In this document: piece after piece, positions 34,001 to 60,941 of the stretch | How the letters are laid out: the number at the start of each line of letters is the position of its first letter | How positions within the stretch are numbered: the stretch's first letter is position 1 | Source of the DNA: a virus | IMG/VR virus record: IMGVR_UViG_3300021963_000072 | Location: 27,364 to 91,363 of that record | Strand: one strand, 5' to 3' | Length of the DNA stretch: 64,000 nucleotides | Notes under the pieces: model-generated | The model's database searches: none | Seen by the model: only the letters and a program-made list of their open reading frames with translations | What the model was told of the DNA's origin: nothing | Program-made: the position numbers and the translations under genes

Positions 34001-37000
34001 AACTGCTCCAGATGTTTTTCCAATAATTTTCATATCCACAGAAATTTGACCATAATAATCTACTTCACTGCTCAACTCTAAAGATCTTGTATCTACGTTT
34101 AAATAACTTGAAGATTCTGTGTAATTATCTGGGGGTGATTGTTGTGTATATGGTATAAGATTGAATTTTTCTACTGGCGATGCAAATGGTCCAGATTTAT
34201 GATTTGGCTTACAAACTCTAAATCTAATTTTACTGGCAGTAAAATGAGGATCAGTTTCTACCGTCTCTCCAATTTCAAACCTTCCAGATATCATATCAAT
34301 TTCCAATAATTTTGGAATAATATATGAACTTACATCAATACCTTCAAAAAATGAGTAAAATCTTGTTCTTGGTCTTAATCCCTTAACATCAAATTCTATA
34401 TTTCTTGATCTTAAATATCTTATAGGTTCAGTAAAGTTTGAAACTGATTCTGAAACTGAATCTTCTCCTACTGTTATATCTGGTGGTATAGTAGTTGTTG
34501 TTGTATTGCTGACTGTCTGAACTGATGTGGTTGTTGAAGAATCTGTAGTGGTTGTTGTAAAGTTTGGAGAAAATTCCAAGAAAATTGCTTGATTTACTCC
34601 ACTACTTTGAACTTGAGTGATGTAACTATTTGCAATATCTTCTGGCAATACGGACCTTAAATAATTTTGGTCTGCAGAATCCAATCTTTTCCTAAATGCC
34701 CTGAATCTAACAACTCTTCTTCCATTGGATGTGACAATTGAACTATTTAAAGCACTACTATTTCTTGTTCTAAAACTATTCCACCATAAATTTAAAGATG
34801 CAACACTTGATCGATTAGTTATCCAAATATTATTTGCTACTCCAGTTCTAGTGTTGACGTTTTCTCTAAAAACTACCTTATTTTCTACAACGTCATTTGT
34901 TGTTGATATATTAATATCAGGAAGAGCATTTAATATATTATATTTTTCATTGGATAATCTATTAACAACCTCCCTTTCTTCTACCCAAGAATCAAGTGGT
35001 GGACGCAATTCAATTGTTCCAGTCCAGTACTTCACTAAGAATGGAGTAACACTTTCAGTTCTTGTTGCATAGGGTTGTTCAAAATATAATACATCCGAAT
35101 AATTTAATGTGATCAAATCTCCGGTTTTTCTAACATTAATTGACCCCAAATTTGTAACAAAATCATGATCTTTTGATTGATCGAACTCATTTGAAATTCC
35201 TAATATAACTTCAGACCCCAACTGCATATCTAACGCAGTTGTATAATGAGTTGGTCTTAATGTTTTTAATTTTGTATCTATTGATACTTTATTATTTGGG
35301 TCTGAAAAATCTTGCAAATCCGTATTAATAAAGCTATCGGCAAAAAATCCACATTTAAATCTATCTAATCCTGTTTCTGCGTCTTTTAACGTTAAGTTTT
35401 CAGTTTGAGTTTCTAATGAATTTAAAATAGTATACTCTTCAAGTTTTCTTATTCTATCTTCTAATGAAGATATATCTTTCATAGTATATTTTTTATGTTT
35501 TGTGACATCAACTTCAATGCTATTGATATTAAAAATATATGGAGGAAGATTAATAGTTGCTACATCTAAACAATTATCTGATAAAGACGGGGCTAATGGT
35601 AAAGTTGATGGTACTCCTTGAATTACTTCAAATGAACCATTTGGCTTTAAACATATTTTATCGATTCTTCCAAGATAATGCTTATAACATACTTGTAAAT
35701 TTTCTCCTGGAGCTAAGATATATTTTGAATATTGACCATCTCCAGTAAAGTTTCTCTGATTAAATTCAAAAGGTGAATATTGATTTAAAGTATATGGAGA
35801 AACTCTAGGTCTTATATCAATGTAATCCGATACTCTTGAAGAGTCGAATGTTGGAATATCATGCTTAAATCCTGATGTTGAATAACTATTGATTGTAAAA
35901 ATTTCTCCAGTATCTGAAGAATCAACTGTGTAATTTTGAAATACTACTTTAATTTTTCTTTCTGGTTCGTTTGAATTTTTCTTTTTAATTATTCTTGAAT
36001 AATCATAATAAGTGCTTCTTTGACCATTATCAAATGAATAATTTTGAGTGATATTTTTATCAGATTGAAAAATATCAAGTACACCCATCAACTTATTCGA
36101 TTCTTTAAATACAACATTTTCACCATTTTGCAAAGGAAAAGAATTTAAATAAACATATTCAATTAAATCTGTTCCTATTTTTTTAACGACCAATCCAACA
36201 AATCCAGATTGTTCTCCTACAAATTGCTCTCCTACAATAATGTCTGAAGTATTCTGATTGACTTGAATTCTTGGCAATTGTGGATCATTTGTGCTTGTAG
36301 ATTCATATATTGCTAAAACACGTATTGCATCTGGCACATTTAATGAAATTTCTTTATCTTGAACTCTAGTTCCATAAACTCTACTATAAGTCAATCCATC
36401 ATCTTTTGTGCCATCACCCGTACCAGAATAATCATATTTTGAATTTGATACAGTTAAAGTTGATACTCTATTTAATTTTTTAATTTTTGAATTTGGTTTG
36501 TAGTTAATTACGGTAACTATTACATCAGCAAATCCACTTGAAGATGGAGAATTTGTCAGGTCTACAAAAGTAACTCGTTTTCCATTATTACTTACATTAA
36601 ATTTATCAAATCTAATAATTTCTTTTTTCCCATTAGAATATGTAATTACATACCTATCTTCATCGAAAGATGCAAAATAAACATCAGTATCTTCTGGATT
36701 AATGTCAACATTTAATGTTCGATTGCTAAATGCAACATTAGTAAATAATCGTCTTTGAGTTAAGGTATTATTTTCCAAGTCCAAAGATGCTACGTTTGGA
36801 TAGGATAATCTTGTCATAAAACTTTCACTATTTCTAGATCCATAGACAGATGGTGAAATTTTAATTATATTCGTTGAATCATAATAATCAGATGGATTTG
36901 ATATATTTGTATATAAAGCACCATCAGCAACTCCAGAAACAGTTGAAATTGCTACAACTTCAATTTCTTTTCCGTTAACATTGACCTTAGAAACTTTATT

Positions 37001-41032: not shown

Positions 41033-41040
41033 TATTTATT
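41033..41040 (-). promoter_or_regulatory. late-type -10 box AATAAATA before gp8
   Basis: AATAAATA (minus) at 41040-41033, about 19 nt before the gp8 ATG and overlapping the stop of the upstream gene. Confidence 0.5.
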
Positions 41041-44000
41041 AATTATTTTGAGTGTATCCTAATGCCTTTAATTTATTTTCTCTAATAACTGTTGCGGATG
41101 TTGAAAGACCTAAAATTCCATTCTTATAATAATTAAATTGCTTTAGTTGAGTTCTCTTTAAATCACTTATCCTTCCCCATGAAAAATCACCAATATATTG
41201 TCCATATATATAACCCGAATTTCCACCAATTGTTCCTATATTTCCTCCACTAGCAATGTCTAGACCGTTATATGAAGCAACAGGAACAACAACCCTTACA
41301 ATTTCTGTTCTTCCGAGACCAACTGATAATCCTGGAACTTCAGTAATTGCTACTCCAACAGATTCTACATTATATATTCCATCCAAATAAGAACTACCAA
41401 CTGAAATTACACTACTATCATTGACATCTAGAGAAGATACTCCAAAGACAGAATTTCCAATATTACTATTACTTATTTTAAAGTAATATCCTGGAAGTAT
41501 TCCACTTTTATCAATTGGAATTCCATATGCAGATTCTCTAAGATATGAATTTTCTGGAATATATAATTCAAATACAAAATTTGTATTAAATCCAACTGTT
41601 GATGTTGTTCCTATTCCAGTTACCCATCCAAAATCCCCCTCATAATTGACTTGATTAATTTTTTCATATGCTATTGTTGGAGGACCAACATGAACTTTGG
41701 TAATATCAGTTGTTGTATATCCATATCCAGGATTATTTAATTGAACTGAAGAAATGGATCCAAATGAATCAATAGAGCATGTTATTTCTGCTCGATTATT
41801 TGTTGTAGTTCCAATTCCTGTAAATGATGGGTATGATACTGTTATATCAGGTGGATCGGAGTATCCGAGTCCTTTATCTATTATATTTACTGAAGAGATT
41901 CTTAAATTATTTCCTATAGAAATAGATACCTCGGCTTGTCTTATGGCATCATTTGAAACAATAACAATATTTCTTTGGGAATTTTTTAAAATTCCAATTG
42001 GTTCATATTCGTCGTCACTATCAAAAAATATTTTTACATTCTCCACAAATATTGATTCGGTACTTCCTATTCCAACACTTTTAATAATTTGTGTTTTGGG
42101 ATATATTTCTGGCTCGTAAATTTCTCTCGATTTTCCTACAACATTTCCGTCAATAATTTTATCATACAATTGCTTACACCATGTAACAGGTCTTTGTAAG
42201 TTTGGATCGTTAGTAACACCAGTGTTTTGATAGACATTTGTTTCAACAATATCAGTGGCGATTATATCTGTCACTGTTCTTGATGTTTGCTGCAAAGAAA
42301 GTAAATTTGAATTTAATGTTATATTGTCTCCTATTTTTATAGTTTCAAGTATATCAACATTTCTTGTGTCAACTTCCTTAGTTCCGTAATAAAAAAGAAT
42401 TACACATTTATCTCCTTGCTTTGGAGGTTCTAAAAATGTTATAATACTTCCTCCACTAAAAGTATATGATTGATTCGGTACTTGGTAAATATCATTTATG
42501 AATACAATTAAATTATATTCAAGTTCTAAAGTGGATCCCGGTCTTGCTCGTAATGTTGTTTGTAGTCCTCCCAACTTTAATGGAAACTCAACTCTCTTCC
42601 CATTAAATAATCTATCGAAACTATCAAAGACAACTAATTCACCAAAAACATAACCAGAGAATGAATCGGTAAATGTTTGGTCAATTGTTACCTGGAATTC
42701 ATCAAAGGAAGAATTTCTCTCAAGATCAAAAACTGACACAACTCCAGATGTACCTATTCCCGTAGTAGTAAATGAATCATATTGAGAACCAACAACCAAT
42801 GATGTTCCGTTTGAAGGTAACTTAACGGAAGTTCCAAAATTATCATTTAAATTTTTAGCATAAATTCCAGTTTGTATGCCGATGTTTACATAATCTGATC
42901 CAAGATAATTCTCAGTAATACGTTCATATAGATAAACAATTCCACTTGAATCTTCAACTCCTGGATATTCATCTTCCTTTGTTCCAATGGCTATTAATTT
43001 ACCATCACTTGTCATAGAAATTGAAGATCCAAAAGCATCGTCAACATTATTTGCATACAGACCATTAAGTATTTGTATGATATAGTACTGATTTTCAATT
43101 TTTTCATAAACATATACAGTTCCGGATCTTGCCCCACCTATACCACTATTATCATTAACTGCGCCAATAGCCAATATTTTCCCATCGTCATTAATTTCAA
43201 CAGAATATCCAAATAATGTCGTTTGAACTATATTATTTGGATTTGGTCCTGTTATTATCCCAACTTGAGTCCAATTTGATGATATATTTTGATATACGTA
43301 CACTACTCCCTGAGATTCATCATTTGGTGCCCCACATATCAAAAATTCACCATTAGAACTCAATGCAATTGAACTACCAAAGTTATCTCCACTGTTATAA
43401 GCATAAAGTCCGGTTATAATTCCTACAGTATTAAACCCAATTGTTGGACTATTTTGTCTTTCGTAAACATATACGACTCCACTAGATGTACTTGCATTTA
43501 AACTTGGATCTTCATCTCCAATAGCAGAAACTGCTATTATATTTCCATCATAACTTGTATCAACCTGCCATCCAAATGTATCAAATGCCCCAAATGCATA
43601 AGCACCTGTAATAATTCCCACATTTGTGAATGTAGGTCCTGAGGATCTATCAAAAACATATACAAGACCACTTGATCCTGGGTTGCCAGGATACTCATCA
43701 TATGGAGCTCCGACAATAATTTTTGTTCCATCCCCACTTATAGCAACAGAATATCCAAAATTATCATCAGCATTTGACGCATACAATCCAGTTAAAATTC
43801 CAACTTGACTATATCCAATTCCAACTTTGTCAAATAGATAAACTAATCCAGATGAAGATCCTGAGTTTGGATCCTCATCATATGGTGAACCAACAACTAT
43901 AAAATTCCCATCATCACTTGTCGATACTGAAAAACCAAATCGATCATTAAATGTCGATAATGAACCAGTAAATATTCCTACTTCGTTGGTAATATTTTTA

Positions 44001-47000
44001 ACAACCAAAGAACTAAATGTTGGTATGCCAGTTACTCCACCAGTTTCTATAGTTAATATCTCACCTTGTCCATACGAACTTCCAAGAGATTTTAATTCAA
44101 ATTGAGAAATTGTCCCATTATTTGAAACTACTAAATCACATTTAGCATAGCTTCCAATACCTGGAGATGATTCGTTACTATAAATTAAATCGAGATCAAA
44201 ATAAGAATTTGGACTATCTACTATAAGATCTAAAGAATCATACCTACGAACAATTACTTCAGATAGTGCTGGAGATATATTTTGAATTGTAATTGGTTGA
44301 TTTATAGTAACTTCATTAGTTTTATAATCAATATCAGTTATTTTAACGTCAGTAATTGCAGCTCCAACAACAGTGATATAATCTGTATAACTATTAATTC
44401 CTGCTATTGATCCCAGTTGAATAGACGTATCGGTAGATTCAATCTCTTTTTGCAAATTGGTATTTAAAATTGTTATATAATTTGTAAATCCAGCTCCAAC
44501 ATTAGTAATTTCTGGTTCCAATAAATGTCCATTTGAAATGGTAGATATTCCAATATGAACTGGAGTTTTTCCTCTTGTTATATTTTTAATAGTTCCACCA
44601 TTAACATAAGTATGTTCAAAAATAGTTTCCCCTACGTATATTGTAAATGTATTCTCATGAGTATATAATACTTCAAATTGATACCCCAAGTTACCTGATG
44701 GAAATTCTAATGTAGCTAAGACAAGAGATCCCGATGAACTTAAAATACTAAACGATGGTGGTGGAACAGAAAGTTCATCAACATTAATTGTAAATGCGTT
44801 TACATTAGATCCAAAGGAAATTGGTGTTGACAACACAGTAAATACCTTGTCATCTAAAAATGTAGAAGTATTTTTAAATAAAACAAACCCATTTGTTGTT
44901 AATGTATTATTAACATCACCATCTGTGGTTATTGTTGTAATTCCCGTAGAATATCTGACTTGATTTGATCCAGATGGAACAAAAGTATGTGGAGAAGTAT
45001 TTGTTCCGGCAGACCCAACATTAACTACAATTGTTGTCGCAGTGGTTGATGCTATTCCTACAGTAGTATTATATGCTGCATCACCCGATCTTGGATAAAA
45101 TGTTGTTGTACTATTTCCATCAAGAGTGCAAGTAAATCCAAGTGATTCTGGCTCAATTAAAATTTTTCCTCCTATTGGCAATGAGTGAGATCCAATAGTT
45201 AAAGTGGAAATTCCAGATACTGGATCATATGTTGCGTTAGTGACAGTAAATAATTTTCTATTTACTGTTATCGATGATATTCCTATACTTTTATTAAATG
45301 TTGGAGAAGGATCACCAGAAGTTCCACCACTATTACACTTATAAACTAACCCTCTTATTTCAACAATTTCTCCTGGTGAAGTGAAAAATTGATCAGAGGT
45401 TATTGTAACAATTCCAGTAGTATGAGTATATGTTGCATTCTCTACTGGATATTCTTTTAATACGTTTACATATATATTTGCAATTCCTACTACTGGATTC
45501 TTGACTTCTACATATACAATATCATTAACATTGGTCTGATCTATACCAGATTGGAATCTCTTAATAACCGCGGATGTGTTGTTAACATATCCATTAGTAG
45601 TTGGAGTATCTAATATGAATAAGTTATTAATTTCATCAACATCAATTATTTCAATATTTTTAGCTACTGTTCCTATGCTTAAATAATATGGAGCTGATGT
45701 AGAAGTTGTATCAATTCCAGAAACACTGGCAACTTCAATTATATCTGTTGATATTCCAGAAGCACTAGTTATACTTGTAGATTTAACAAATACAAATCCA
45801 CTTGAATCATCGACTTCTATCCATGCATCAACTGGATTTGCTATTTGAACATAATATCCAGTTTCACCATATCCAACTGATGTTATTTGATTAAATCCAT
45901 TATTCTCTATTCTATTTCTTCCGATACTATTTTTAACCAATAATCGACAATCCGATTGTGAATACAAATAATTTAATTTGTTCCTAATACCATTTATGTC
46001 TTTTAAATAAAATGTTCCGCCATTTGGACCAAATGATGGAGATGATATTTCCGTTTCAAACGTATAATCGTTTTCTGCTCTGTATCCGGATCCAGTATAA
46101 CCAATAAAAATTGATTCTATAGTCCCCCCATAAGACACTTTAGCAGTGCCTCCGGCAGCAACTAATGGTTGATATCCTAATCCTGGTTTGGTGCCAACAG
46201 AAACGATTATTCCACCTCTTGGAATTGATGCTGTATTAATATCTTCCGGATTTGAAGATGGGGAACCAGTAAATTTAATAGTAGTAATTCCAGCACTTTC
46301 AGATAATCCATAATCAATAAAATCCGGAGTTTGGAACACATTGTTAATTAAAACTAATGCATTTCCTGTAGAGAATCCTGCAATATTTTCACCTCTTTCC
46401 GTTAATACTGCTTGGGTAGATATTCCCGTGAACTGTTGAGATATATCATCCAATAAGAAATTATAATCATATGGACCAATAGAACTATCTTCAAATCCAG
46501 ATCTTAAAAATACCCTTGCATCAAATGTAGAAAAAGTTTCTAATCCAACGTAATCTCTATCTTCCGGATCCGTTCTTTCAAAATCTGTGGTTGGACTTTT
46601 TTCAAATGGGGGGACGGGGAAATATATGGTATTTTCAGAAATTTGATAATTGCCAGATAATTTTACAACGTCTGATCCAGATTGATGATCAGCTAATTTT
46701 GAGCCCAACATGGGTCTTCTGACAATAAAATTATTATTACCTGCAAATTTTACATAATTTATTCTCATTATTTCATTGTCAATTCTAATCAAATCTCCAC
46801 TAAAAAATGATGTAACACCAGTAACATTTATTAAATCTTCAGCTCCAGATAAATTATTAACTAATTGAGTTTTTATTGTACTATCAATAGTTGGCGATTG
46901 TACTACGTTATCAATAGTTACGAATGTTCTTGTATTTTGCTTTTCTCCTATAAATTTATGAAACGTTCCAAATCCTAATCTAGTTAAATCTAAAACATCA

Positions 47001-47374
47001 GGTATTCTTTTTAAAGCACCTTCTTTTGTGGCAGATAATTTGATAAATCTGTCGTTTAATTTTACGGCATAAACTGTTGAAGGTAAAACTGAAGAAATTC
47101 CAATATTTGGAATACTTGTAGATGCAATACCTATAGCATTATTACTACTTGTCAAAAATCCATCATATTCATAAGTCAATTCCTCACCAGTTCTAAAAAA
47201 ATGATTAGGTAAAAAAATTGTATTATTTGAAAGATCTACATCACTGTCCGAACTACCCAAAAAGAATTTCTCAAAAATAGGTTGGCTTCTATGTCTAAGC
47301 TCCGCACTTAGTTGAACGTCAAATCTTCTTCCTACATAATCTCCAGAACCGCTATTAATGATTATTTCTGCCAT
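41039..47374 (-). CDS. giant virion structural protein with FG-GAP beta-propeller (2111 aa)
   Basis: A 2111-residue baseplate/fibre protein. The N-terminus MAEIIINSGSGDYVGRRFDV, RSQPIFEKFFLGSSDSDVDL is conserved in cyanophages. Residues about 1138-1553 (42715-43960) hold seven FG-GAP-like repeats of the form D-x-F-G-x-S-V...S-x-D-G-x-x-I-x-V-G-x-P-x-D-E...S-G-x-V-Y-V-Y-x-R. Other modules: INVTGVTSFFSGDLIRID near 180, HSLPIGGKI near 730, GLGYSDPP/PGYGYTTTD near 1820-1900. The C-terminus KLKALGYTQNN is typical of gp6/gp7-neighbour proteins. It lies 13 nt after the 3742-residue gene. Confidence 0.85.
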   Translation of the reverse strand: MAEIIINSGSGDYVGRRFDVQLSAELRHRSQPIFEKFFLGSSDSDVDLSNNTIFLPNHFFRTGEELTYEYDGFLTSSNNAIGIASTSIPNIGISSVLPSTVYAVKLNDRFIKLSATKEGALKRIPDVLDLTRLGFGTFHKFIGEKQNTRTFVTIDNVVQSPTIDSTIKTQLVNNLSGAEDLINVTGVTSFFSGDLIRIDNEIMRINYVKFAGNNNFIVRRPMLGSKLADHQSGSDVVKLSGNYQISENTIYFPVPPFEKSPTTDFERTDPEDRDYVGLETFSTFDARVFLRSGFEDSSIGPYDYNFLLDDISQQFTGISTQAVLTERGENIAGFSTGNALVLINNVFQTPDFIDYGLSESAGITTIKFTGSPSSNPEDINTASIPRGGIIVSVGTKPGLGYQPLVAAGGTAKVSYGGTIESIFIGYTGSGYRAENDYTFETEISSPSFGPNGGTFYLKDINGIRNKLNYLYSQSDCRLLVKNSIGRNRIENNGFNQITSVGYGETGYYVQIANPVDAWIEVDDSSGFVFVKSTSITSASGISTDIIEVASVSGIDTTSTSAPYYLSIGTVAKNIEIIDVDEINNLFILDTPTTNGYVNNTSAVIKRFQSGIDQTNVNDIVYVEVKNPVVGIANIYVNVLKEYPVENATYTHTTGIVTITSDQFFTSPGEIVEIRGLVYKCNSGGTSGDPSPTFNKSIGISSITVNRKLFTVTNATYDPVSGISTLTIGSHSLPIGGKILIEPESLGFTCTLDGNSTTTFYPRSGDAAYNTTVGIASTTATTIVVNVGSAGTNTSPHTFVPSGSNQVRYSTGITTITTDGDVNNTLTTNGFVLFKNTSTFLDDKVFTVLSTPISFGSNVNAFTINVDELSVPPPSFSILSSSGSLVLATLEFPSGNLGYQFEVLYTHENTFTIYVGETIFEHTYVNGGTIKNITRGKTPVHIGISTISNGHLLEPEITNVGAGFTNYITILNTNLQKEIESTDTSIQLGSIAGINSYTDYITVVGAAITDVKITDIDYKTNEVTINQPITIQNISPALSEVIVRRYDSLDLIVDSPNSYFDLDLIYSNESSPGIGSYAKCDLVVSNNGTISQFELKSLGSSYGQGEILTIETGGVTGIPTFSSLVVKNITNEVGIFTGSLSTFNDRFGFSVSTSDDGNFIVVGSPYDEDPNSGSSSGLVYLFDKVGIGYSQVGILTGLYASNADDNFGYSVAISGDGTKIIVGAPYDEYPGNPGSSGLVYVFDRSSGPTFTNVGIITGAYAFGAFDTFGWQVDTSYDGNIIAVSAIGDEDPSLNASTSSGVVYVYERQNSPTIGFNTVGIITGLYAYNSGDNFGSSIALSSNGEFLICGAPNDESQGVVYVYQNISSNWTQVGIITGPNPNNIVQTTLFGYSVEINDDGKILAIGAVNDNSGIGGARSGTVYVYEKIENQYYIIQILNGLYANNVDDAFGSSISMTSDGKLIAIGTKEDEYPGVEDSSGIVYLYERITENYLGSDYVNIGIQTGIYAKNLNDNFGTSVKLPSNGTSLVVGSQYDSFTTTGIGTSGVVSVFDLERNSSFDEFQVTIDQTFTDSFSGYVFGELVVFDSFDRLFNGKRVEFPLKLGGLQTTLRARPGSTLELEYNLIVFINDIYQVPNQSYTFSGGSIITFLEPPKQGDKCVILFYYGTKEVDTRNVDILETIKIGDNITLNSNLLSLQQTSRTVTDIIATDIVETNVYQNTGVTNDPNLQRPVTWCKQLYDKIIDGNVVGKSREIYEPEIYPKTQIIKSVGIGSTESIFVENVKIFFDSDDEYEPIGILKNSQRNIVIVSNDAIRQAEVSISIGNNLRISSVNIIDKGLGYSDPPDITVSYPSFTGIGTTTNNRAEITCSIDSFGSISSVQLNNPGYGYTTTDITKVHVGPPTIAYEKINQVNYEGDFGWVTGIGTTSTVGFNTNFVFELYIPENSYLRESAYGIPIDKSGILPGYYFKISNSNIGNSVFGVSSLDVNDSSVISVGSSYLDGIYNVESVGVAITEVPGLSVGLGRTEIVRVVVPVASYNGLDIASGGNIGTIGGNSGYIYGQYIGDFSWGRISDLKRTQLKQFNYYKNGILGLSTSATVIRENKLKALGYTQNN

Positions 47375-47386
47375 TTTACTTTTCGA

Positions 47387-50300
47387 TTAGAATCGTCCAA
47401 TGTTTACTTGAATACCTTGTATTTTAAACTGTGTGAATGGTGATGGTTTAAATAGCAATTTAGTTAAAGATCCCTCTAACCTTGATGAAAAAGTTCCAAC
47501 CCCAACTGTACCAATTCCACTCGTTTCTGTGGGAGTGGGAACTACCAACTTTCCATATTCCGTAATATATGAATTGGCTTGATTATTAATTAATTGAATT
47601 TCTTGTGATACATATTGTTTATTTATTTGTCTTTCAGTAAAACTACTTGAAAAACCTAACATTTCAGTTTCTGCGTTGGCGCTATCATTAATAAACAATG
47701 CAAATGGATTGTTTCCTTCAAATTTCCACAAATTGGCACCTCCAGCAAAATTGTTCGCAGTTCCAGAGAGCTCTGCAGCATTTCCAAAAAATGTAAGATT
47801 AACTCCAAATCCAGATGTTCCAGATCTATACGCACTATCTGGGGTTTCTATTGAAGTGCCATTTAAATCATGCTGTTCACCAAGAACCCAAGAACTTCCA
47901 TTCCAATATGAAACTCTAACTGTTGTATTTGGATATGGGGCGATTAAAGCATAATCCGACAAAGTTTCTCCATAAGAATAAGTATTTGAAATATATTCTA
48001 TTGGAATACCTTGTTTCATATCGGATCCAGATCCATCATCAGTTTCAACAGATATGATTGTCTGCTGATTGAAAGCAGAAACTGCGGTATAATCTGAAAC
48101 TGACAATGGTTGATCATAAGCTGTGCGAATTCTATCAACTCCAAGTCCAGTAAAATATTTGGTCATTGTCGAATTATTAATAGAAATTGCTGGACTTAAA
48201 AGACCTTTATCTAAAATAGGGGATGAATCTGCAGAATCATAATAATATGTTGTCATAATAACTGGACTTGTTGATGTAAAAAATACCCAATCATCATAAG
48301 TTGTTGTTGTAAGCACACCAGATTTTCCTGGTTGAATTGTTACTGTTGTGACACCTATTCCAGTAGTGTTTCCAATTCCCATAGTATTACCAAATCCTGT
48401 CTGGTTTTGATCATACAAAGTAACAATAACATTATCATTATTTTGATTTGGAAGAGCAAAAATATTAAAATAAGACACTCCAGTTTCTGTTGGTATTCCA
48501 ACTGAACTTCTATCTGCAATATAATGTCCAAATGTGGTTGATGCATAAGAAACTGGCGATATTCTATGCTGATTTCCTGGTTCAATAAAATGAATAGGTT
48601 TGTTTGCAAAATATCTACTTCCCGATGTTATAGAAATAGTCCCTCTCTGTGGGTTAGATCCAGTGGTTAAAAGAACATTTTCAAATCCATCATTTGTGAC
48701 TTCAATTAGTTTAGTATTTGGATATATTGCCGAATATGTTGCAGTTCCATTTTCAAACGCATACCAATCAGAAATTCCATGATTTTGTGGTCCGGCATCG
48801 TATGCAAGAACATTATCAGTTTTTACCCCAACAACGGTAAGGAATACATATGCACATTTATATTGGGTACTATAATTCAATATTTCTGTGAATGATGGTA
48901 TAGTTGTTCCTATTCCTACCTGTTCAAATGATATCACTTCTCCGGTGTCGAACCCTAAATTATCGGTCAATGAATAATCTGTATTTGCAATGGAAACCGT
49001 AACAGCTTTTATATTATAATCATCTTCCAAAGTATTATATGGTGTCATTACTATATCATAAGTTGTTCCGCCTATTCCCATTCGTGCTGAGTATGAAGCT
49101 ATACCAGAAACAGATCTATCTGGAAAATTATCTTGAGTTTTAGTTATGAGTTCACCATATTCCAAAAGTCTTATGTCATCAGAATCATCATGAATTATTG
49201 AAAGTTCATTTATTTCATAGTATGAGGTAGTTGCAGATCCAACCAAAATGAATATCTTACTTGCTCTATATGTGGAAGCTATTCCCACAACAGCAGTTCC
49301 AATTCCGGGAAGAACTCCAGAAGTTAAAATTCCAGTTTGATTATAAATTCTACCAACGTCTCCAAGAGCAACATCTTCAAGTTCTTCGGGATCATCACTC
49401 ATCTCAAATGAAACATAATCTACTATATAATTGTTAAAGTCAAATTTTGTTGGGAAAAATAAAACATTTTGATTTGAACCTATAATTTCAGATTCAAAAG
49501 ATCCAAGATCAGATGCAGTTTCTAGCCTTCCATACTGACCACAAAAAACATCAGTATCATCATGTACTGTGGTAAGTATTAACATTTGTTTTTCATTAAA
49601 GAATCTTCTATCTTGAATATAGAAGAAATGTTTTCTTGCTCTAATTTTTGTAGATGGATTTCTTGATACGATTGAATAAGTAGTTTCTCTTGGAAGTGGG
49701 TTGAAATTTTTACTAATATCATCTATACTTAAAACTCTATTATCGATAGATTCAATATAATCTTGAAGTATTCTTGAATTAAAAATTACCTGATTTGATT
49801 TTAAAGTATTGTTTGAAAGGAATGATAACTCTCTTGCCAAATCAAAATCATAAGTGCAGTTTACACTTGCAGAAGATATTAAATCGGTAATAGGAGTAAC
49901 TGCCCCATCATTTTGAGATGTGGAGATTCCTGAGAAATCTTTTTGTCTTGAAATAACTTCTAAATTTGAAAATCTTTTAAATCCTGCGGTATGATTTAAT
50001 GTTGCTACCGGATCATCCCATTTATTAATAGGTACTTCCGACTTCAATGAGTATGAAAAATATTGATAGTAATCACTATCATGAATTCTTTGAAGATCGA
50101 GATTAAGTTTTCCAGTATCTTTAGTCCACCCTTTATTAACAACTGATGTAGAATCTATATTGTAAAATGCATCAAAATTTATTTTTTTAAGTATTATCGC
50201 TTTCGTTTTGCTCGATTCTCCAATAATTATATCACCAACATTAAAATCTTCAAATATTCCAACTTTTAAATAATCATTTGCAGAATCCCATTGATCCACA

Positions 50301-53300: not shown

Positions 53301-56300
53301 TCAATTTCACCGTAATTTGCATATTTGATTTTACTAATCGGCTCTTTTATTTTATTTGATTGATTCAGATATCTATAAGATGAATCGATATTGTTTAAAA
53401 GATATGGACTTGTATTTTTATACCAAGATGTTTTATTAATATCTACAGTATCTTGATTGATTTTTTGATCAAAGTTAAACTCTATAGGTAAAGATTCATA
53501 AAAATCTCCAATCACATAAGGAAACTGTGGTATAAATGTTTGAGCAGGTTCTTTTCTGATTGATGGATTTACAGTGCAAAAATATGCATACACTCCATTT
53601 GGATATTCTGGTGTTTTACAATACCTTCCATTATGAATGTCCAGATATTCACTACCTTCACTTGTAAAATCTATATACTCATAATCTTCTACAAAAAATC
53701 CAAGTGGAAACAACAGCTCTGATGGTCCGTCTGTTCTTTGAGAAATTAATTTATAAGAAGATTGCATTGGAACAATAGTTCCTGATAATCCATTTTTATA
53801 TCCATAAGGACCATAAATTGGATTTCCGTCATATGCCCATCCAACTATTGGAGAGTGTTTTGCCTCGTTTCCTACTCTGTCTGATTCTATGTCAGGATAA
53901 TATAAAGAATTTTCTTCAGAATGGAATAAAAGTCGTAGTGTATTTGAAAGGTAGATATGCGTATACTGAAGATCATCCGTTCCAAGATCAGAAAAAACAA
54001 ATCCCTCATCATTTGTTAATCTTGAATTTAATTCATATCGTTTTAATAGATTTATATTCCAAGATTTTATTTTTACCGATGTTCTAAGTCCTTCACCTCT
54101 ATCAATGATGTCAATTATTGTGCTTGATCTATCATATCCGTTACCTCCATATAAAACATTAATTCTTATCAATTTTCCATCTTCAATCTCCGGTACTAAA
54201 ACAGCTCCATTTCCAAATCCCCTAACAATTACATCTGGAGTACTGTAGTAATTTTTTCCCGAATTTAAAACCAATACTTCTTTGATGGATCCATCTGTAA
54301 TTAATGGTATTGCTTGGGCATTTATTCCCTTTACCACTTCAACTGATGGTTGTTTAACATAATTTACAATATCTGATGAACCATAATTATTTCCAGATTC
54401 GGAGATAAAAATAGAACTTATTTCACCTCTAAAAATTGGATTTACTTTTGCGTTTAAATCTTGACCCGCAGAGGTTGACACTCCAATAAATCCTTTTATT
54501 TCAACATTAATTGGCTCATAATTAAAATAATGAGTTCCAGATCCTTGACTTGTTATATTGACATATTGCTTTGTCAAAAAATAAAAATCATTAGTTTTAT
54601 CCGATCCAGTAAAAGTTTCAGATAGTTTAATATTATTGTTATCTATTTTAGTAACATAATATGAAGTATTCTCTTGTAACCCACCAATCAAAGAACCAGT
54701 ACTAAAATGAACTAGTAGTTCACCATCAGAATATCCATGATTGGGAATATTAATTATATTGGAGATTACATTTACATTTTCTGGTAAAGTAGATACTTTT
54801 CTATTTTTATATCCAGAACCGGGATTGACAATGGAGATATATCCTATTTTTGATTTATTTTTTGATGACTTTAAATAATGTCTACCAGATGAATATCCAT
54901 CAATACCTACTGTGTTAATTCCAGAAATAGCATCAGTTTTTGATTTATATAATTTAACTGATGAAGAATTTTCAACAGAGATGATATATCTACTTCCATT
55001 TTCAAGACCTGGAACTGAACTTGTTGAAGAACTGAAATATACAATTTCCTCATAATTTTCAAAATTATGATAAGTAGAAAATCCAATAATATTATTTTGT
55101 GTATCTAGTATTCCATTATTTGAAGATGCTGGAAATTCAATTTGATAAGAAAAACTTTCCATAACTGGTTCAGCTATGGCATCAAATCCATTGCCACCAG
55201 TTATGTAAATTTGCGGTTTCCCGATATAATTAAATCCTGGATAGATTATATCCATTCGTTCCAGTGATCCAGTTACGGAAGGAAATGCTACACAACCTAC
55301 ACCAAGGTCCCCAATGGTTACAGATTTATCACCTACTCTTACCTCAGATCCTCCTACACCACCAACAGAAAGTTGAGTTCCTCCTACACCACCAACAGTA
55401 GCAACTAATCCATTAATTCTTAAAACAGATCCACCAATTTGATTAATATAAAGATTTTTTTCTCCAAGATTAAGAGTTTTTCCTTCTACAATTATCAATT
55501 CTCCACCTTGACCATCGTATGTTATAACATCTCCTCCAACAGCACCAAATTTAATAGGTACTGAGTTTGAAAAATTAAATATTGGCGTTGATTTGTTGGC
55601 ATTATATCTTACTTGAGTGCCAGCAGTATCTAAAACATTTAATTCTGGAGGATTAATTACATCATATCCAAATCCAGGTGATGTAACTTCTATTGATTGA
55701 ATATCTCCAAAAAATATTGAACTTCTTGATTTATAATTTAATATCTCAACTCCATTTTTAAATATTCCAATTTTTCCATAATTAGTTTTAATTTTTTCTT
55801 GACCTTTAGTTGGACTTGATATTTTTTTAATTAGTTTTTTTGGCCCAATATCACTTGGTAAAAGATAGTTTGGACTATTTACATCTACATTACTATACTC
55901 AAAGAATTGTATAGTGCATCTACACTCCCTAAATTCTGGCACATTGAATGGGGGTATAAGATCTAAAGTTTCATACCTTTCATTTAATATTAATGATGTA
56001 CTTCTTGCAAGTTTAAATCCATAAAGATCTCCTTCTATTCTAAAATCTTTTATAAAATAAATTCCATCGGGAATTGGACTTTTATCATTTTCCAATGATC
56101 TAAAAATTATTTGATCTCCCGTGTAAAACCCATGCTTTAATGCATTATCAATTCCGTTATTACTTTCTCTAAAGCAAGTTATATAAGAGTAATCTATAGT
56201 CCCATCAGTAAATTGTTTGTCAGATAATGAGTTCACACTTCCATCGGAAGTTATTTTTCCAAACAAAAATAAACCAGAAATTGATCCATCTTTAATATCC

Positions 56301-58615
56301 AACTCTACGGGAATTCCAGTTTCATCAGTATATGATGGCAATGAAGAAGACATTATGTATAGATTATCTTCTTTATCTAAGTAGGTATTTTGAATGTTAC
56401 TTGAATAATTTTCAAGATTTGGTTTATTTAATAAATTGACTTTTGTTATTTGCTTATTTAAAATATAATTTTTGACTAAAATTGTTAACGAAATATCAGT
56501 AACAATATTTCCATTATCTTGAATAAATTGTACGTTTAATTTTTTATTTGATATTATTTTTGTAGCATAACATTTTAAATTTGGAGCTTCATCGAAATAA
56601 AAGAAATCGGATCTATGGAAATTATGCTGATCGTATAATTCTAATTCAAATATCCCACTTATACTATCTTTTAAAATAACATCTTTTATTCTATAAGAAA
56701 CTGGAATATTATATACCCAGTCGTTATCCTTTTTACGAGTAGATAATTTTCCTAAAGATTGTATTCTAATTTTATTTCCCTTTTCAAACAAATAGGTATC
56801 TTCATTTTGAATAAAATTCGATAAAACTCCCGTTATTCTAACTTTTATTTTTTTATCTAAATTTTTACTAGAAAATCCAAAAGCATAAGAATCATTATGA
56901 ACAATACTACCCTCAAAAATTTCATTGTTAATAACATCAGTAATTGAATCTAAAGTTTTGCACCCATAGAATTGAGTATTGGATTTTGATTCATAAGAAA
57001 TAGAAAATGTCAATGGACCACTTAAAGATTTTGTTGTTATTTCCAATATTCCCGAAGGAGGAAAACTAACAGTAGAATCGACATTTATTACGGTAGATCC
57101 GGGTTCAATTTTTTCAGTTACTATAGTTTTGGGGTGAATTGAAAATTGACTGAATAGTGTGCCTCTATAATTAATATCCCTTTCATATCCATCGTCAATA
57201 CTTATTACATAATAACTAGTATAATCTCTTTCTATTCTTTCAACAAACGATACAGTTCCCCTTGCAGCAGGTATAAAAGGTGTTTGCTCTTGATATAATG
57301 TTTGATTTTTTAATTCTTCAGGATTGCCTTCCAATACTTCCACAACCAAATTTCTCAAAACACTATAAGAAGCATTAGATGGAGAAATTAAAAAGTCACT
57401 TGGCCTAATAACTGAAACTTTCTTATCGTATAAGGCAGAAAACAAAATTTTAAATGATGTTTCAGTTCCTTTAGATGAATAAAAATCTTTTCCTTGCTTA
57501 ATGAACAATGATTCATTTAATTTGGGATCTAATTCTCTATTTTCAAATCCCGGAAGAATTTGATATTTTATCTTCTTTAAAAATTCTTTAAAGAAGATAG
57601 AATTTAGATTTAATACCTCAGTATCAATTGAATGAAACGTTGCAGAAGTTTTTTCAAACGTTAATTGATCTTCATTATCAACCAAAGAGGTGATGCCACT
57701 AAATCCCCTAACACAACCAAGAAGTTTTAATCCCTTTACATCATTACCTTTTATTTTAAGATCTATTGTATTTTTATCAATACTCTTATATAAAATTATT
57801 TCGTCATCAATTTTAAGCAGTCCATATGAAATCGGTAGTGATCTTCTATCGTTATTTTCAGAATAAATTATTATTTCATTGGAAACATCAGATATATTTT
57901 TATTAGATGAATTTCCTAAAACTACATGTGATATTTTTTTAATAAGTCCTTGATTTCTATCTCCATTAAATCTAATGCCCAAGTCAATAGAAATACCGAC
58001 ATCAAATCCCCTTCCAATAACTGTTAATATTATTTGATTTAAATCAGATGGATCATATAAATCTATTTTTTGACCAACTGGAATAAACAACTCATCTTTA
58101 TCAGATACAAAAATATCCGTATCATCTGTTTCATATTCAGTAACTGCTTCAGTAATAAAATCTTTGACTTTTAATGGATTATAATTTTTAAGTTTATATC
58201 TTTTTTCGGTATTTTTTAATTCAAATACAGTCCCATCTTCAGATATATTTGTTATTGTAAAATATTTTCCATCAATTTCAGAATCATTTGTATTATCAAT
58301 TAATACTACATCATCATTAATGTAGGTGTCATTTTCAACTGTGGTAATTTTTATATTACTAGTAATATTTTCTTTTATTATTTTTGTTATATTAATTTGT
58401 GGATTATATAAGTAATATAAATCATTTACTTGATTTAAAACATCTATTTTGATGTAGTTGCTTATATTTCTTAATATGTCAACGCTGCCAAAATTAATTT
58501 CTGTTGAATTATAGTATTCTTTTAAAAACTCACCAAGTAATGGAAATTCTACTCTAATAAATTCTGGAAGTTGGTATTCAACTATAGAACTTATTTTTAT
58601 TGTGGAGTTTTTCAT
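47387..58615 (-). CDS. giant gp7-like baseplate wedge/structural protein (3742 aa)
   Basis: A 3742-residue protein in the position of T4 gp7 (1032). The N-terminal about 450 residues recall the C-terminal part of T4 gp7: LPEFIRVEFPLLGEFLKEYY at 15-34 and FYSSKGTETSFKILFSALYD at about 375-395 (T4 gp7 has FYSTKG-EASYKFLF). It continues with many glycine/H-G-L modules, a VGG-rich segment at about 1018-1105, and a YHYH-like domain at about 1583-1685 (HSPIVGWAYDGNPIYGPYGY, HNGRYCKTPEYPNGVYAYFC). The last about 500 residues are Gly/Ser/Thr-rich beta structure. No frameshift or internal stop is seen across 11.2 kb. Role as wedge plus receptor-facing extension is inference. Confidence 0.85.
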   Translation of the reverse strand: MKNSTIKISSIVEYQLPEFIRVEFPLLGEFLKEYYNSTEINFGSVDILRNISNYIKIDVLNQVNDLYYLYNPQINITKIIKENITSNIKITTVENDTYINDDVVLIDNTNDSEIDGKYFTITNISEDGTVFELKNTEKRYKLKNYNPLKVKDFITEAVTEYETDDTDIFVSDKDELFIPVGQKIDLYDPSDLNQIILTVIGRGFDVGISIDLGIRFNGDRNQGLIKKISHVVLGNSSNKNISDVSNEIIIYSENNDRRSLPISYGLLKIDDEIILYKSIDKNTIDLKIKGNDVKGLKLLGCVRGFSGITSLVDNEDQLTFEKTSATFHSIDTEVLNLNSIFFKEFLKKIKYQILPGFENRELDPKLNESLFIKQGKDFYSSKGTETSFKILFSALYDKKVSVIRPSDFLISPSNASYSVLRNLVVEVLEGNPEELKNQTLYQEQTPFIPAARGTVSFVERIERDYTSYYVISIDDGYERDINYRGTLFSQFSIHPKTIVTEKIEPGSTVINVDSTVSFPPSGILEITTKSLSGPLTFSISYESKSNTQFYGCKTLDSITDVINNEIFEGSIVHNDSYAFGFSSKNLDKKIKVRITGVLSNFIQNEDTYLFEKGNKIRIQSLGKLSTRKKDNDWVYNIPVSYRIKDVILKDSISGIFELELYDQHNFHRSDFFYFDEAPNLKCYATKIISNKKLNVQFIQDNGNIVTDISLTILVKNYILNKQITKVNLLNKPNLENYSSNIQNTYLDKEDNLYIMSSSLPSYTDETGIPVELDIKDGSISGLFLFGKITSDGSVNSLSDKQFTDGTIDYSYITCFRESNNGIDNALKHGFYTGDQIIFRSLENDKSPIPDGIYFIKDFRIEGDLYGFKLARSTSLILNERYETLDLIPPFNVPEFRECRCTIQFFEYSNVDVNSPNYLLPSDIGPKKLIKKISSPTKGQEKIKTNYGKIGIFKNGVEILNYKSRSSIFFGDIQSIEVTSPGFGYDVINPPELNVLDTAGTQVRYNANKSTPIFNFSNSVPIKFGAVGGDVITYDGQGGELIIVEGKTLNLGEKNLYINQIGGSVLRINGLVATVGGVGGTQLSVGGVGGSEVRVGDKSVTIGDLGVGCVAFPSVTGSLERMDIIYPGFNYIGKPQIYITGGNGFDAIAEPVMESFSYQIEFPASSNNGILDTQNNIIGFSTYHNFENYEEIVYFSSSTSSVPGLENGSRYIISVENSSSVKLYKSKTDAISGINTVGIDGYSSGRHYLKSSKNKSKIGYISIVNPGSGYKNRKVSTLPENVNVISNIINIPNHGYSDGELLVHFSTGSLIGGLQENTSYYVTKIDNNNIKLSETFTGSDKTNDFYFLTKQYVNITSQGSGTHYFNYEPINVEIKGFIGVSTSAGQDLNAKVNPIFRGEISSIFISESGNNYGSSDIVNYVKQPSVEVVKGINAQAIPLITDGSIKEVLVLNSGKNYYSTPDVIVRGFGNGAVLVPEIEDGKLIRINVLYGGNGYDRSSTIIDIIDRGEGLRTSVKIKSWNINLLKRYELNSRLTNDEGFVFSDLGTDDLQYTHIYLSNTLRLLFHSEENSLYYPDIESDRVGNEAKHSPIVGWAYDGNPIYGPYGYKNGLSGTIVPMQSSYKLISQRTDGPSELLFPLGFFVEDYEYIDFTSEGSEYLDIHNGRYCKTPEYPNGVYAYFCTVNPSIRKEPAQTFIPQFPYVIGDFYESLPIEFNFDQKINQDTVDINKTSWYKNTSPYLLNNIDSSYRYLNQSNKIKEPISKIKYANYGEIEFVDIVVGGEDYKVNDTILFKNSDVIGQDATASISHIKGKEVTNIGVARSSFSNVEFEKNSNKSGFIGFTSTPHNYSDGDVVSITTPVERISFQKIKVKSNNLVLTSTLNTVAQTGLSTYIQVSGNIKYPDVRENDIYKFTDEENGYETIRILNIDTQKSIIRIERSVNANSGLSTVYSGTILQELPRKFESDLGIKTSYNSRTNYEYYFNSKNSVGFGTNISSGITSVVYTGSGISSITIPIRSIYLPNHNFETNQPLYFKGLLAYNKVGNPANILLQDSIVYSVKISKDLIGLSTTRVGFGTTGNVVNLLDNSDPLLYFNPAINNTENSLKTLKTNVFNAIVSQNIVTVSVGSTHGLLENDFIDIKLKPKNELNVIVEYNDENRLMVLNPRTFLSVNVDAVTDSIVIPAHKLSTGDKILYRSINQNGDNVPAISGLIDNQVYYVVAIDRNTISLCDTLYETRLEFPNYINLSNPQPGKIYQINPQILTFKNQTINFDLSHPSLSIASGNSLVRTSSFTFDIYSDANFNYKYFSSGNTKNFDVIKTGSIGVSNNARLKLYLSDDAPNNLFYKLTPILFENNLSSKLEILVDSEQTKNNRITCIESKYNGVYKVFGIIDNNPNEPPFSDAVFKYQIPLDPEQDSYTNENCTIEYSTNSIHAFGPISKISLNNRGRYFYTLPKETIINSTLGNGAILGGNSTSVGKIKSVDITDIGFNYSSDLSIRPIAKLPTIFKVEPLYSIDRIRIDSVGINYLTAPNIVVIDKKTGKIVDDVVLRYNLGDNFVTIDQNTKNLSSIEPRLVPINNSNAIPLLLNQQDIIILDVNNNAVPQEVVNGIDNALLSEDADDSEYNFPDSIQFSNLPTIQVFLKTEYSTIYDFPFQLGDFVFIEDVVTIAESQGLESKGFNSQSNGFAFYKVIRRDPNIGGAGASVTLDFKGYLDPDVENPEDSDSYKVDDFLSEAARIVPVKYFPKYTITLLKNNFSEDEFIRNESDILSGRGIVDQWDSANDYLKVGIFEDFNVGDIIIGESSKTKAIILKKINFDAFYNIDSTSVVNKGWTKDTGKLNLDLQRIHDSDYYQYFSYSLKSEVPINKWDDPVATLNHTAGFKRFSNLEVISRQKDFSGISTSQNDGAVTPITDLISSASVNCTYDFDLARELSFLSNNTLKSNQVIFNSRILQDYIESIDNRVLSIDDISKNFNPLPRETTYSIVSRNPSTKIRARKHFFYIQDRRFFNEKQMLILTTVHDDTDVFCGQYGRLETASDLGSFESEIIGSNQNVLFFPTKFDFNNYIVDYVSFEMSDDPEELEDVALGDVGRIYNQTGILTSGVLPGIGTAVVGIASTYRASKIFILVGSATTSYYEINELSIIHDDSDDIRLLEYGELITKTQDNFPDRSVSGIASYSARMGIGGTTYDIVMTPYNTLEDDYNIKAVTVSIANTDYSLTDNLGFDTGEVISFEQVGIGTTIPSFTEILNYSTQYKCAYVFLTVVGVKTDNVLAYDAGPQNHGISDWYAFENGTATYSAIYPNTKLIEVTNDGFENVLLTTGSNPQRGTISITSGSRYFANKPIHFIEPGNQHRISPVSYASTTFGHYIADRSSVGIPTETGVSYFNIFALPNQNNDNVIVTLYDQNQTGFGNTMGIGNTTGIGVTTVTIQPGKSGVLTTTTYDDWVFFTSTSPVIMTTYYYDSADSSPILDKGLLSPAISINNSTMTKYFTGLGVDRIRTAYDQPLSVSDYTAVSAFNQQTIISVETDDGSGSDMKQGIPIEYISNTYSYGETLSDYALIAPYPNTTVRVSYWNGSSWVLGEQHDLNGTSIETPDSAYRSGTSGFGVNLTFFGNAAELSGTANNFAGGANLWKFEGNNPFALFINDSANAETEMLGFSSSFTERQINKQYVSQEIQLINNQANSYITEYGKLVVPTPTETSGIGTVGVGTFSSRLEGSLTKLLFKPSPFTQFKIQGIQVNIGRF
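55349..55398. repeat. 20-bp direct repeat, period 30, in the VGG segment of the giant gene
   Basis: TCCTCCTACACCACCAACAG occurs exactly at 55349-55368 and 55379-55398, a 30-bp period that gives a 10-residue protein repeat with VGGVGG. Further VGG units flank it. Confidence 0.85.
57569..57599. repeat. perfect 13-bp-stem inverted repeat inside the giant gene
   Basis: TATCTTCTTTAAA (57569-57581), loop AATTC, TTTAAAGAAGATA (57587-57599). It lies within the gp7-like coding sequence and encodes a Phe/Lys-rich stretch. Confidence 0.8.
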
Positions 58616-58616
58616 A

Positions 58617-60539
58617 TTATCTTCTTACTAATAAATCTCGGTCTGAATAACTTGATGATGCTTTAAATATACTTCCAGATGTATCATTTCCAGAAACTAT
58701 GGAATCTTGAACAGCATTGATTAAAGAATTTGACACATCCAATTGCAAGTATAAATCTTGTAATGCAATAATATCATTTGATCTTGGCCTTAATGATAAT
58801 TCTATGATGTTTTCATTTCCAAAAACTTTATCTGTTTGAATAATATTTATCGGATATAAAAGAATCTCTCCTTTATTGTAATCTATTTCTCCCGCATTCT
58901 TCCTTACTATTAAAGGTTTATTTTCTTCGGTTAATTTAAATACAACTAATTTTCCTGTTCTTAAATCCGAATTTGGAATATCACTTATATAAACAGTATC
59001 GGATACTCCAGAAATCTTAAATCCACTAGATTTTAAATTATATCCTGACTCACATTCAATAAAAAAACTATTTCCGTAACAAATTTCATAACCAGCAAAT
59101 TGATTCAATGCTGCTCTCAAATCTCTTCGGATTTCAATTTTTGTAATATTGGAAGTAATAGATTCATTAGTTTTATCAATAATATTTAAAAATTTACTAT
59201 ATTTAAATCTTGCCCCATACGAATTTAATTCTGGAGATTTAGAATACTTTAATACATTTTTGCTAATAGAATCAATAAGTTTAGAAGCACTTTCTATTTT
59301 ATTCGTATTATAGTAAGCAATTGTTGAAAATTCAACATAAAGATATTTCAAATCTAATATTTCTGGTACAATTCCTGCAACTGTGTATTTTCTTAATGAA
59401 GATTTGAGATTGTCTTTAACAAAATTTGGAACAAACTGTCCATTTATTGGTTTAATAGTAATAAAAACCCTTCCATATTGGGGTGGATTTAAAACTTCTC
59501 CACCAAAAACAGATACAGATTCTGCCTCTGGATACAATTTGGGTATTAACGCTTCATAGTCCGATGCCGTGACTGCTCTGTATTGAGATGCGTATATTCT
59601 GGGAGCATAATTTCTAATTGAATTTACGCTTTCAATTTGCTTACCACCTCTTGATGGTGTATTTGTAATAACTATCGATACACCGCTAGTGACTATTGCA
59701 TCATTATTGGTAAATAACCTTCCACTATATCTAAAATCATTAACTCCGTTTGAAGTTTCACCATTGGAAATTATATAAGATACTTCTATAAAATTATTAT
59801 TTTCTAATTTTTCTCCAAAAATTCCATCTCCAAAAATTAACTCATATCTTTCATCGGACACTTCTTGTATAAAAAATACCTTTGAGTTTGAGTTTACCTC
59901 AAATATACTATCCGATAGATTAAACTTTCTACCAAATGATCTATTCTTTTCGTCTCTAACATTAACTCTAATCGTAGAAACGTCAATTCCGGCATTACCT
60001 AGAATAAATCTCTGCCCAGGAATTCTTGCATCTACAACAAAGTTCTCTGTTACGAAAGTCCCTTCTACAACTTCTATATTTTTAAATTGTGCAACATCAT
60101 TAATTACAGGAACCGTAATATCATCTAGGACAGAAAACACACCACCAGAAGATCCTGTTTGTCCCCTACTTGACCCAGATACGGCAATGCCCCTCTTCAA
60201 GGTCAATGTAATTGGTCTAGGTCCAGCAAAATTTTCAGTATCAACTTCAAATGTTACGTTTGCTCTTGATGAAGTTTTTGATCTTGGTACGTATCCAATG
60301 TTTCTTGCCAATGCAACAACATTCTCTCTCAGTGTTGCACTGTCTATAAAAACCTCATTTGCAATCATGTTTGCATTGAATGAGGTTATATAAGTATTGT
60401 AAGCTAAGACATCAACAACATTCGATAAGGTAGATCCCTCAAAATCATAATCCGTAAATTCACTATTAGATCTTAAATAATCTTTAAGTGTTGTCTTGAT
60501 TTGATTAAAATCAAGATTAGAAAAATTAACTAATCCCAT
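58617..60539 (-). CDS. 6: baseplate wedge protein gp6
   Basis: A 640-residue wedge protein (T4: 660), central ring component of the baseplate. MGLVNFSNLDFNQIKTTLKD, NTYITSFNANMIANEVFIDS, LARNIGYVPRSKTSSRANVT, YELIFGDGIFGEKLENN, and RAVTASDYEALIPKLYPEAE are the gp6/gpJ-family segments. It starts 1 nt after the gp25 stop and is followed 1 nt later by the gp7-like gene, so all three are in one transcript. Confidence 0.96.
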   Translation of the reverse strand: MGLVNFSNLDFNQIKTTLKDYLRSNSEFTDYDFEGSTLSNVVDVLAYNTYITSFNANMIANEVFIDSATLRENVVALARNIGYVPRSKTSSRANVTFEVDTENFAGPRPITLTLKRGIAVSGSSRGQTGSSGGVFSVLDDITVPVINDVAQFKNIEVVEGTFVTENFVVDARIPGQRFILGNAGIDVSTIRVNVRDEKNRSFGRKFNLSDSIFEVNSNSKVFFIQEVSDERYELIFGDGIFGEKLENNNFIEVSYIISNGETSNGVNDFRYSGRLFTNNDAIVTSGVSIVITNTPSRGGKQIESVNSIRNYAPRIYASQYRAVTASDYEALIPKLYPEAESVSVFGGEVLNPPQYGRVFITIKPINGQFVPNFVKDNLKSSLRKYTVAGIVPEILDLKYLYVEFSTIAYYNTNKIESASKLIDSISKNVLKYSKSPELNSYGARFKYSKFLNIIDKTNESITSNITKIEIRRDLRAALNQFAGYEICYGNSFFIECESGYNLKSSGFKISGVSDTVYISDIPNSDLRTGKLVVFKLTEENKPLIVRKNAGEIDYNKGEILLYPINIIQTDKVFGNENIIELSLRPRSNDIIALQDLYLQLDVSNSLINAVQDSIVSGNDTSGSIFKASSSYSDRDLLVRR

Positions 60540-60941
60540 TTATCGAATTGGTTGAAGGGCAAAATTTAGCTCTTGTGGCGGGACATCTATGCCTACAATT
60601 TTATAAGTTATTGTGACATTAAATTCTTGGTTGTCAAAATTTGCATCTACAATGACCTTATTTAATTTCACTCTTGGTTCATACAATGTAATTGTAGTAG
60701 ATATTTGGTCTTTTATGTCCGATGCTGTTAAACTGTCAAAATTTTCAAATAAAGACCTTGTAATCTCAGATCCCAATCCAGGAGAAAATGGTCTCTCTCC
60801 TGGATATGTGGATATTAAATTACGAATAGAACGCGCAATAGCAACCTCATTTTTAATAGAAAGAAGATCTCTATTAATAGGATTTGCCCTAAATGTAAGG
60901 CTAACATCCTTAAAAGATTTACTTGAGCGTTCTACTGGCAT
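60540..60941 (-). CDS. 25: baseplate wedge protein gp25
   Basis: A 133-residue protein (T4: 132) of the gp25/lysozyme-like wedge family that joins the sheath to the baseplate. NEVAIARSIRNLISTYPGER, PFSPGLGSEITRSLFENFDS, and the EPRVKLNKVIVDA segment (the conserved E-P-R) are present. It is first in the gp25-gp6-gp7 series. A late-type AATAAATA box and a small AACC/GGTT hairpin lie in its leader. Confidence 0.96.
   Translation of the reverse strand: MPVERSSKSFKDVSLTFRANPINRDLLSIKNEVAIARSIRNLISTYPGERPFSPGLGSEITRSLFENFDSLTASDIKDQISTTITLYEPRVKLNKVIVDANFDNQEFNVTITYKIVGIDVPPQELNFALQPIR

Follow-up and report, generated by a model that had tools for sequence, protein, structure and literature searches.

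A YHYH-family domain (PF14240) lies within the giant gp7-type baseplate wedge protein of a marine cyanophage-like virus, and the Asp/His/His-x-His cluster of its intact relatives is absent from this copy. What remains of the domain shows the highest conservation of any block of its length in the protein. Our preferred reading, to which we assign a probability of roughly 0.65, is that this His-less module would act as a structural or protein/ligand contact element of the giant cyanophage-type gp7 and not as a metal-dependent hydrolase. The analysis was performed on a stretch of 64,000 nucleotides (the window; positions 27,364 to 91,363 of the 91,363-base IMG/VR record IMGVR_UViG_3300021963_000072). 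Coordinates in the window are given in Table 1.

Table 1. Features of the window discussed in the text; residue numbers are those of the giant protein.
Feature	Position	Strand	Residues	Basis or remark
YHYH domain (PF14240)	53561-53875	-	1581-1685	profile positions 87-185 of 193, E = 5.1e-24
Peptide HSPIVGWAYDGNPIYGPYGY	53798-53857	-	1587-1606	
Peptide GFFVEDYEYI	53672-53701	-		
Peptide HNGRYCKTPEYPNGVYAYFC	53576-53635	-		
Segment at the place of the Asp/GH/YHxH cluster of intact relatives	53951-54064	-	1518-1555	T1534, G1545, YTHIY at 1551-1555, no HxH
Most conserved 104-residue block	53546-53857	-	1587-1690	first of 3639 windows in the comparison with seven orthologues
Giant gp7-type baseplate protein, 3742 aa	47387-58615	-		phrog_2885, gene order, two T4 gp7 motifs
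T4 gp7 core motif 1 (DFYSSKG...)	57410-57499	-	373-402	matches T4 gp7 729-759
T4 gp7 core motif 2	49979-50053	-	2855-2879	matches within T4 gp7 864-890
Glycine-rich GG-x-L-x-V repeat	55307-55546	-	1024-1103	solenoid-like by eye
gp6 baseplate wedge protein	58617-60539	-		PF21379, E = 1.4e-16; phrog_219, E = 4.7e-188
gp25 baseplate wedge protein	60540-60941	-		PF04965, E = 5.1e-16
2111-aa protein after gp7	41039-47374	-		seven FG-GAP_2 stretches (PF14312, E = 6.9e-36); beta-propeller-like adhesion candidate
2785-aa protein	31079-39436	-		DUF4815 (PF16075, E = 7.2e-56)
D12-class adenine DNA methyltransferase	3770-4654	-		PF02086, E = 3.8e-29
FkbM methyltransferase, HSP20 and pyrimidine-dimer glycosylase genes	1757-2347, 2378-2866, 5910-6422	-		

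The YHYH domain and its host protein

An earlier note, made from the letters of the window, had recognized a YHYH-like domain in a giant gp7-like protein by three peptides. All three are found on the minus strand in the 3742-residue open reading frame (Table 1), and the profile search bears out the family assignment: PF14240 scores 85.7 bits against a curated cut-off of 25, with an E value that rules out a chance match. The NCBIfam search returned no match over a cut-off. The HSPI...D-G-x-P-I-Y-G and LD..NGR...TPEYP blocks are both present in the domain; the first 86 of the 193 profile positions are unmatched, and the name-giving YHYH motif of intact relatives sits just before the HSPI block. 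This is the only YHYH match across the virus record, and none was found in 14 control genomes. Using tblastn, the YHYH stretch was located at 690 places in 462 of 50,697 phage records, named by organism as Synechococcus (372), Cyanophage (61), Prochlorococcus (24) and Marine (5). A second scan counted 463 such records. A YHYH domain in a giant gp7 is thus ordinary for cyanophage-type phages.

The placement of the domain in a gp7-type baseplate protein, also proposed in the note, holds as well. The reading frame is assigned to the baseplate wedge subunit family phrog_2885 with E = 0, and the gene follows gp6 directly in the baseplate genes, as expected of a T4-type gp7. The order gp25, gp6, giant gene recurs in P-SSM2, S-SM2, RN05-S, S-PM2, S-RIM2, S-WAM1 and S-RIM14; its giant member carries only the annotation hypothetical or structural in S-PM2, S-RIM2 and S-RIM14. 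BLASTP detected no full-length similarity between the giant protein and T4 gp7, but two short collinear motifs are shared. For motif 1, a single comparison gave an hhalign E value of 1.1e-7 (probability 94%) and a BLASTP E value of 4e-5; for motif 2, likewise from a single comparison, hhalign gave E = 3.8e-5 (probability 71%) and pairwise BLASTP just E = 0.17. The synteny and these two motifs support the gp7 label.

The two motifs are 105 residues apart in T4 gp7, compared with approximately 2450 in the window protein, and the YHYH domain lies in the insertion between them. This YHYH-bearing insertion is present in the window protein and the cyanophage orthologues and is absent from T4 gp7, in which a search for YHYH gave no match. 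The order motif 1, YHYH, motif 2 was observed in all eight proteins compared, i.e. the window protein and each of the seven cyanophage orthologues fetched. T4 gp7 has phrog_964 as its family and also reaches phrog_2885, through the first motif, with E = 1.3e-4. The cyanophage giant gp7 or 'baseplate wedge initiator' proteins (P-SSM2 gp7, S-SM2 gp7 and S-RIM14 AOO14285.1) share the gene order of the window and carry the domain between the two motifs, likewise without YHxH. Among the 60 phage records listed by tblastn, the stretch surrounding the domain is 33.7-41.4% identical to the window; the three complete orthologues have 4337-6198 residues, compared with 3742 here. According to the available parts of PMC7029224, a VrlC protein apparently takes the place of T4 gp7 in the phages discussed there, and YHYH domains are listed among the unidentified structural proteins of the operon. 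The VrlC-labelled gene of S-RIM14 is distinct from the giant gene and lies five genes after it.

The glycine-rich repeat region of the giant protein looks like a lineage-specific insert, since the 100-residue bin from residue 1001 has 0% identity to the seven orthologues. Elsewhere in the window (Table 1), the FkbM methyltransferase, HSP20 and pyrimidine-dimer glycosylase genes are of kinds usual in marine T4-like phages.

The missing cluster and the conserved core

Reference numbering was taken from alignment A3, made of 22 intact domains (one viral, the others cellular), in which D59, H64, H72, H74, H91 and D100 are among the invariant residues. D59, H64 and H72-x-H74 precede the HSPI block, within the profile part that the window leaves unmatched. 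At these four positions the window has T1534, G1545, T1552 and I1554, so that none of the four is kept, and the name-giving Y-H-x-H is replaced by YTHI at 1551-1554. Residues 1487-1586 contain no HxH, because the sole His residues there are 1553 and 1565; His 1553, at the centre of YTHIY, is kept in 65% of the viral rows of the larger alignment A2. The profile of intact cellular domains aligns to the window from position 84 onward and not across the cluster segment, so the window cluster residues are placed by the multiple alignment alone.

Alignment A2 comprised 145 rows: the window and 144 stretches from a list of 160, a list that itself excluded rows containing X, near-copies and L080. The residue frequencies at D59, H64, H72 and H74 are 1.00, 0.98, 1.00 and 1.00 in the 51 cellular YHxH rows and 0.03, 0.01, 0.01 and 0.01 in the 78 viral rows including the window; the groups are partly defined by YHxH, which makes the H72 and H74 counts circular (1.00 by construction in A2). 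The D59 and H64 counts are less circular, as is a grouping by source and length. The latter was performed on 287 redundant copies, loci being omitted where the domain lay too close to the end of the piece; 'giant' denotes an open frame of more than 850 residues in the cut sequence pieces, and the viral sets are the best 80 loci per scan and lean towards the query. On this basis the strict D-GH-YHxH pattern occurs in 53 of 57 short cellular copies (YHxH in 55), in ten of 11 short viral copies and in seven of 197 giant viral copies, the other 190 being without it. An alignment-free count of any HxH within 100 residues before HSPI gave 56/57, 10/11 and 8/197 for the same three groups.

The loss of the cluster across giant viral copies is neither uniform nor all-or-none. 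In some viral copies, such as GNPDSNNIYGYV, the cluster segment is recognizable and shows plain replacement, and the intact cellular profile aligns across it. In a further set, near-copies were thinned to leave 187 rows, which were placed on the profile of intact cellular domains; 112 of them are giant viral rows lacking YHxH. Of these, 38 align at the Asp position and 35 of them keep it, and H64 is still His in four of 39 aligned (73 unaligned). Four viral contigs (L200, L201, L202 and L205) encode giant proteins, with a 2200-residue open frame in the piece, that have an intact GH...YHYH cluster. Among giant copies in cellular assemblies the cluster is absent from 18 of 22. These 18 His-less copies in bacterial or archaeal assemblies (L039-L047, L049-L051, L053, L054, L057, L058, L071 and L081) are probably mostly phage contigs binned with the genomes. 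A search of the open PMC literature, whose listed titles included two phage papers and one diatom paper on YHYH, found no statement on His loss in YHYH copies.

A quick tree was calculated from the part after the cluster for the 187 rows, again leaving out rows with X and near-copies. The window falls within a 79-row set (SH-aLRT 97) of 71 giant viral copies and eight giant copies from cellular assemblies, and the cluster is found in none of the 79. On that one tree, with 96 of 184 inner branches weak, the cluster state changes at least nine times by the fewest-changes count, which is not proof of several losses.

The remainder of the domain is under strong constraint. Against the seven orthologues, the block 1587-1690 has a mean identity of 51%, compared with 21% for the whole protein and 19% for residues 1511-1586. 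Four of the seven (S-SM2, S-WAM1, S-RIM2 and S-PM2) are cut pieces, which lowers the apparent identity late in the protein; the block remains at rank 1 when the three complete orthologues are used alone with gaps skipped. Residues H1587, D1596, D1644, D1659, N1662, R1664 and Y1678 are kept in the window. Of the 112 giant viral rows lacking YHxH, 106 have His at H91, 108 have Asp at D100 and all 112 have Asp at D165; D176, N179, R181 and Y195 are retained wherever these positions align (109 rows). Replacements of H91 occur in L027, L028, L071 and the cellular L085. The earlier note had asked for a comparison of the conserved residues, naming their loss as grounds for refutation, and the outcome is divided: the four cluster residues are lost, and conservation is retained only from the HSPI His onward.

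Predicted fold

Structural prediction, as suggested in the note, gave a confident AlphaFold2 model of the window domain on A2 (pLDDT 89.3, pTM 0.83); a 24-row alignment with narrow limits had given a pLDDT of 44, and the 145 rows and a wider stretch were used instead. Sequence searches of the PDB with the domain and with the full-length protein yielded no entry at E values up to 1, the PDB profile search returned a single chance-level ribosomal match (E = 1.8) and the best Foldseek match to the PDB had an E value of 5.9. Comparison of the domain model with 30 chains in VIA-align gave no Z of 2 or more. This absence of a PDB match is not proof of a new fold. In BFVD, 16 models were matched at E values up to 0.001, two of them from giant viruses, and the named ones are YHYH, structural or baseplate proteins.

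In the model, the columns of positions D40, E41 and D79 hold Asp in 0.86, 0.85 and 0.91 of the A2 viral rows, with E as the window residue at the second. A re-made acidic site in the viral copies was considered on this basis. Copies of the S-RIM14 type do not show the DDG form, so such a site would not be general.

Possible roles of the domain

According to the available parts of Iyer et al. (2021; PMC7824862), YHYH is an enigmatic domain with a conserved His triad and one Asp predicted to bind Zn, and is predicted to be a tail-associated metal-dependent hydrolase, AOO14285.1 being the example. The idea of such a hydrolase is therefore not new. The residues are unnumbered in that text, and we infer that the triad and Asp correspond to the D59/H64/H72/H74 cluster. 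The available parts of PMC11992049 and PMC3037559 contain nothing on the function of YHYH. AOO14285.1 is encoded by the giant gene beside gp25 and gp6 in S-RIM14 (KX349303), at the gp7 position, and has 6198 residues. At D59, H64, H72 and H74 it has D, G, A and L, and YHxH occurs nowhere in it; a His triad is not possible, since just H91 is left of the four invariant His. The product of the next gene, AOO14286.1 (573 residues), has all four cluster residues and also keeps H91 and D100.

AOO14286.1 has counterparts in P-RSM6 (CPXG_00127) and P-TIM40 (P-TIM40_100), where an intact small YHYH copy directly follows the giant gene; the fetched piece of the giant gene stops short of YHYH in both. 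These three proteins share the family and the baseplate gene neighbourhood with the window copy. Unlike it, they have the whole His cluster and match PF14240 almost fully (positions 7-184, 17-184 and 20-183 of 193, respectively). The free-standing bacterial YHYH proteins have the part from HSPI on in common with the window domain and keep D-(4 or 5)-H...H-x-H, which the window does not. The short free-standing proteins of the fetched set have open frames of 295-766 residues, and several start with hydrophobic stretches that appear signal-peptide-like by eye.

For the window copy, the enzymatic or metal-binding role put forward in the earlier note finds no support, given that none of the four cluster residues is there. 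A metal-dependent hydrolase of the tail, acting to open the host envelope as would follow from Iyer et al. (2021), has the published prediction behind it, and the six residues D59, H64, H72, H74, H91 and D100 are kept in the 22 intact domains and in AOO14286.1. The very protein cited, AOO14285.1, retains only the Asp, and the window copy none of the four; we regard this role as improbable here. The seven kept residues could form a site of their own, enzymatic or ligand-binding and independent of the missing His, as they vary little, if at all, across both cellular and viral rows, perhaps less than a bare scaffold would require. Their invariance may equally be structural, in a domain for which the PDB has no solved relative, and the His at the position of H1587 is replaced in L027, L028, L071 and the cellular L085; such a site is improbable.

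Two further explanations appear very improbable. The loss of the four cluster residues might mark a domain decaying after loss of function; this was rejected because the block 1587-1690 tops the conservation ranking of the whole protein, also with the complete orthologues alone, and the supported 79-row set carries the domain without the cluster. Alternatively, inactive and active YHYH copies might work as a pair, the gp7 copy docking or scaffolding and the neighbouring small protein being the active one. The adjacency in S-RIM14 fits this arrangement, as do P-RSM6 and P-TIM40 as far as their fetched pieces extend. Against it, the window record, a 91-kb fragment, contains no second copy, the intact copy of S-BM3 is within a protein labelled peptidase S8, and contact between copies is hypothetical.

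A building or binding module is the likelier role for the window copy than an enzyme, because the histidines thought to hold the metal ion are lost. The domain is a YHYH-family module in the large insertion that cyanophage-type gp7 wedge proteins carry, and it lacks the Asp/His/His-x-His cluster. In the free-standing proteins this cluster probably forms the metal site, and the four absent residues would be its ligands. Strong constraint probably keeps the fold together with a conserved core built from the HSPI...DG.PIYGPYG, EDY and LD..NGR.C.TPEYP.G.YAYF stretches. Conservation and place suggest that the module is most likely a structural or protein/ligand contact part of the baseplate. Weighing against this reading are the frequent retention of His 1553 in viral rows, the seven giant viral copies with the whole cluster, the uneven loss in the others and the difficulty of aligning the window across the cluster segment. 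A more elaborate and distinctly speculative version is that the YHYH domain of the giant gp7, with a fold for which the PDB search gave no match, gave up its metal site and became a module for contact with the host or the baseplate. The His cluster would have been lost perhaps more than once, and some phages would have an intact, possibly active partner encoded by the adjacent gene.

For the block of highest conservation in this giant, little-studied marine cyanophage baseplate protein, the PDB copy searched contained no solved relative. For the giant phage copies the published functional guess is corrected: the cited AOO14285.1 is without the histidines and its neighbour AOO14286.1 has them. 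The YHYH domains of these two S-RIM14 proteins make up a clean test pair within one isolated phage.
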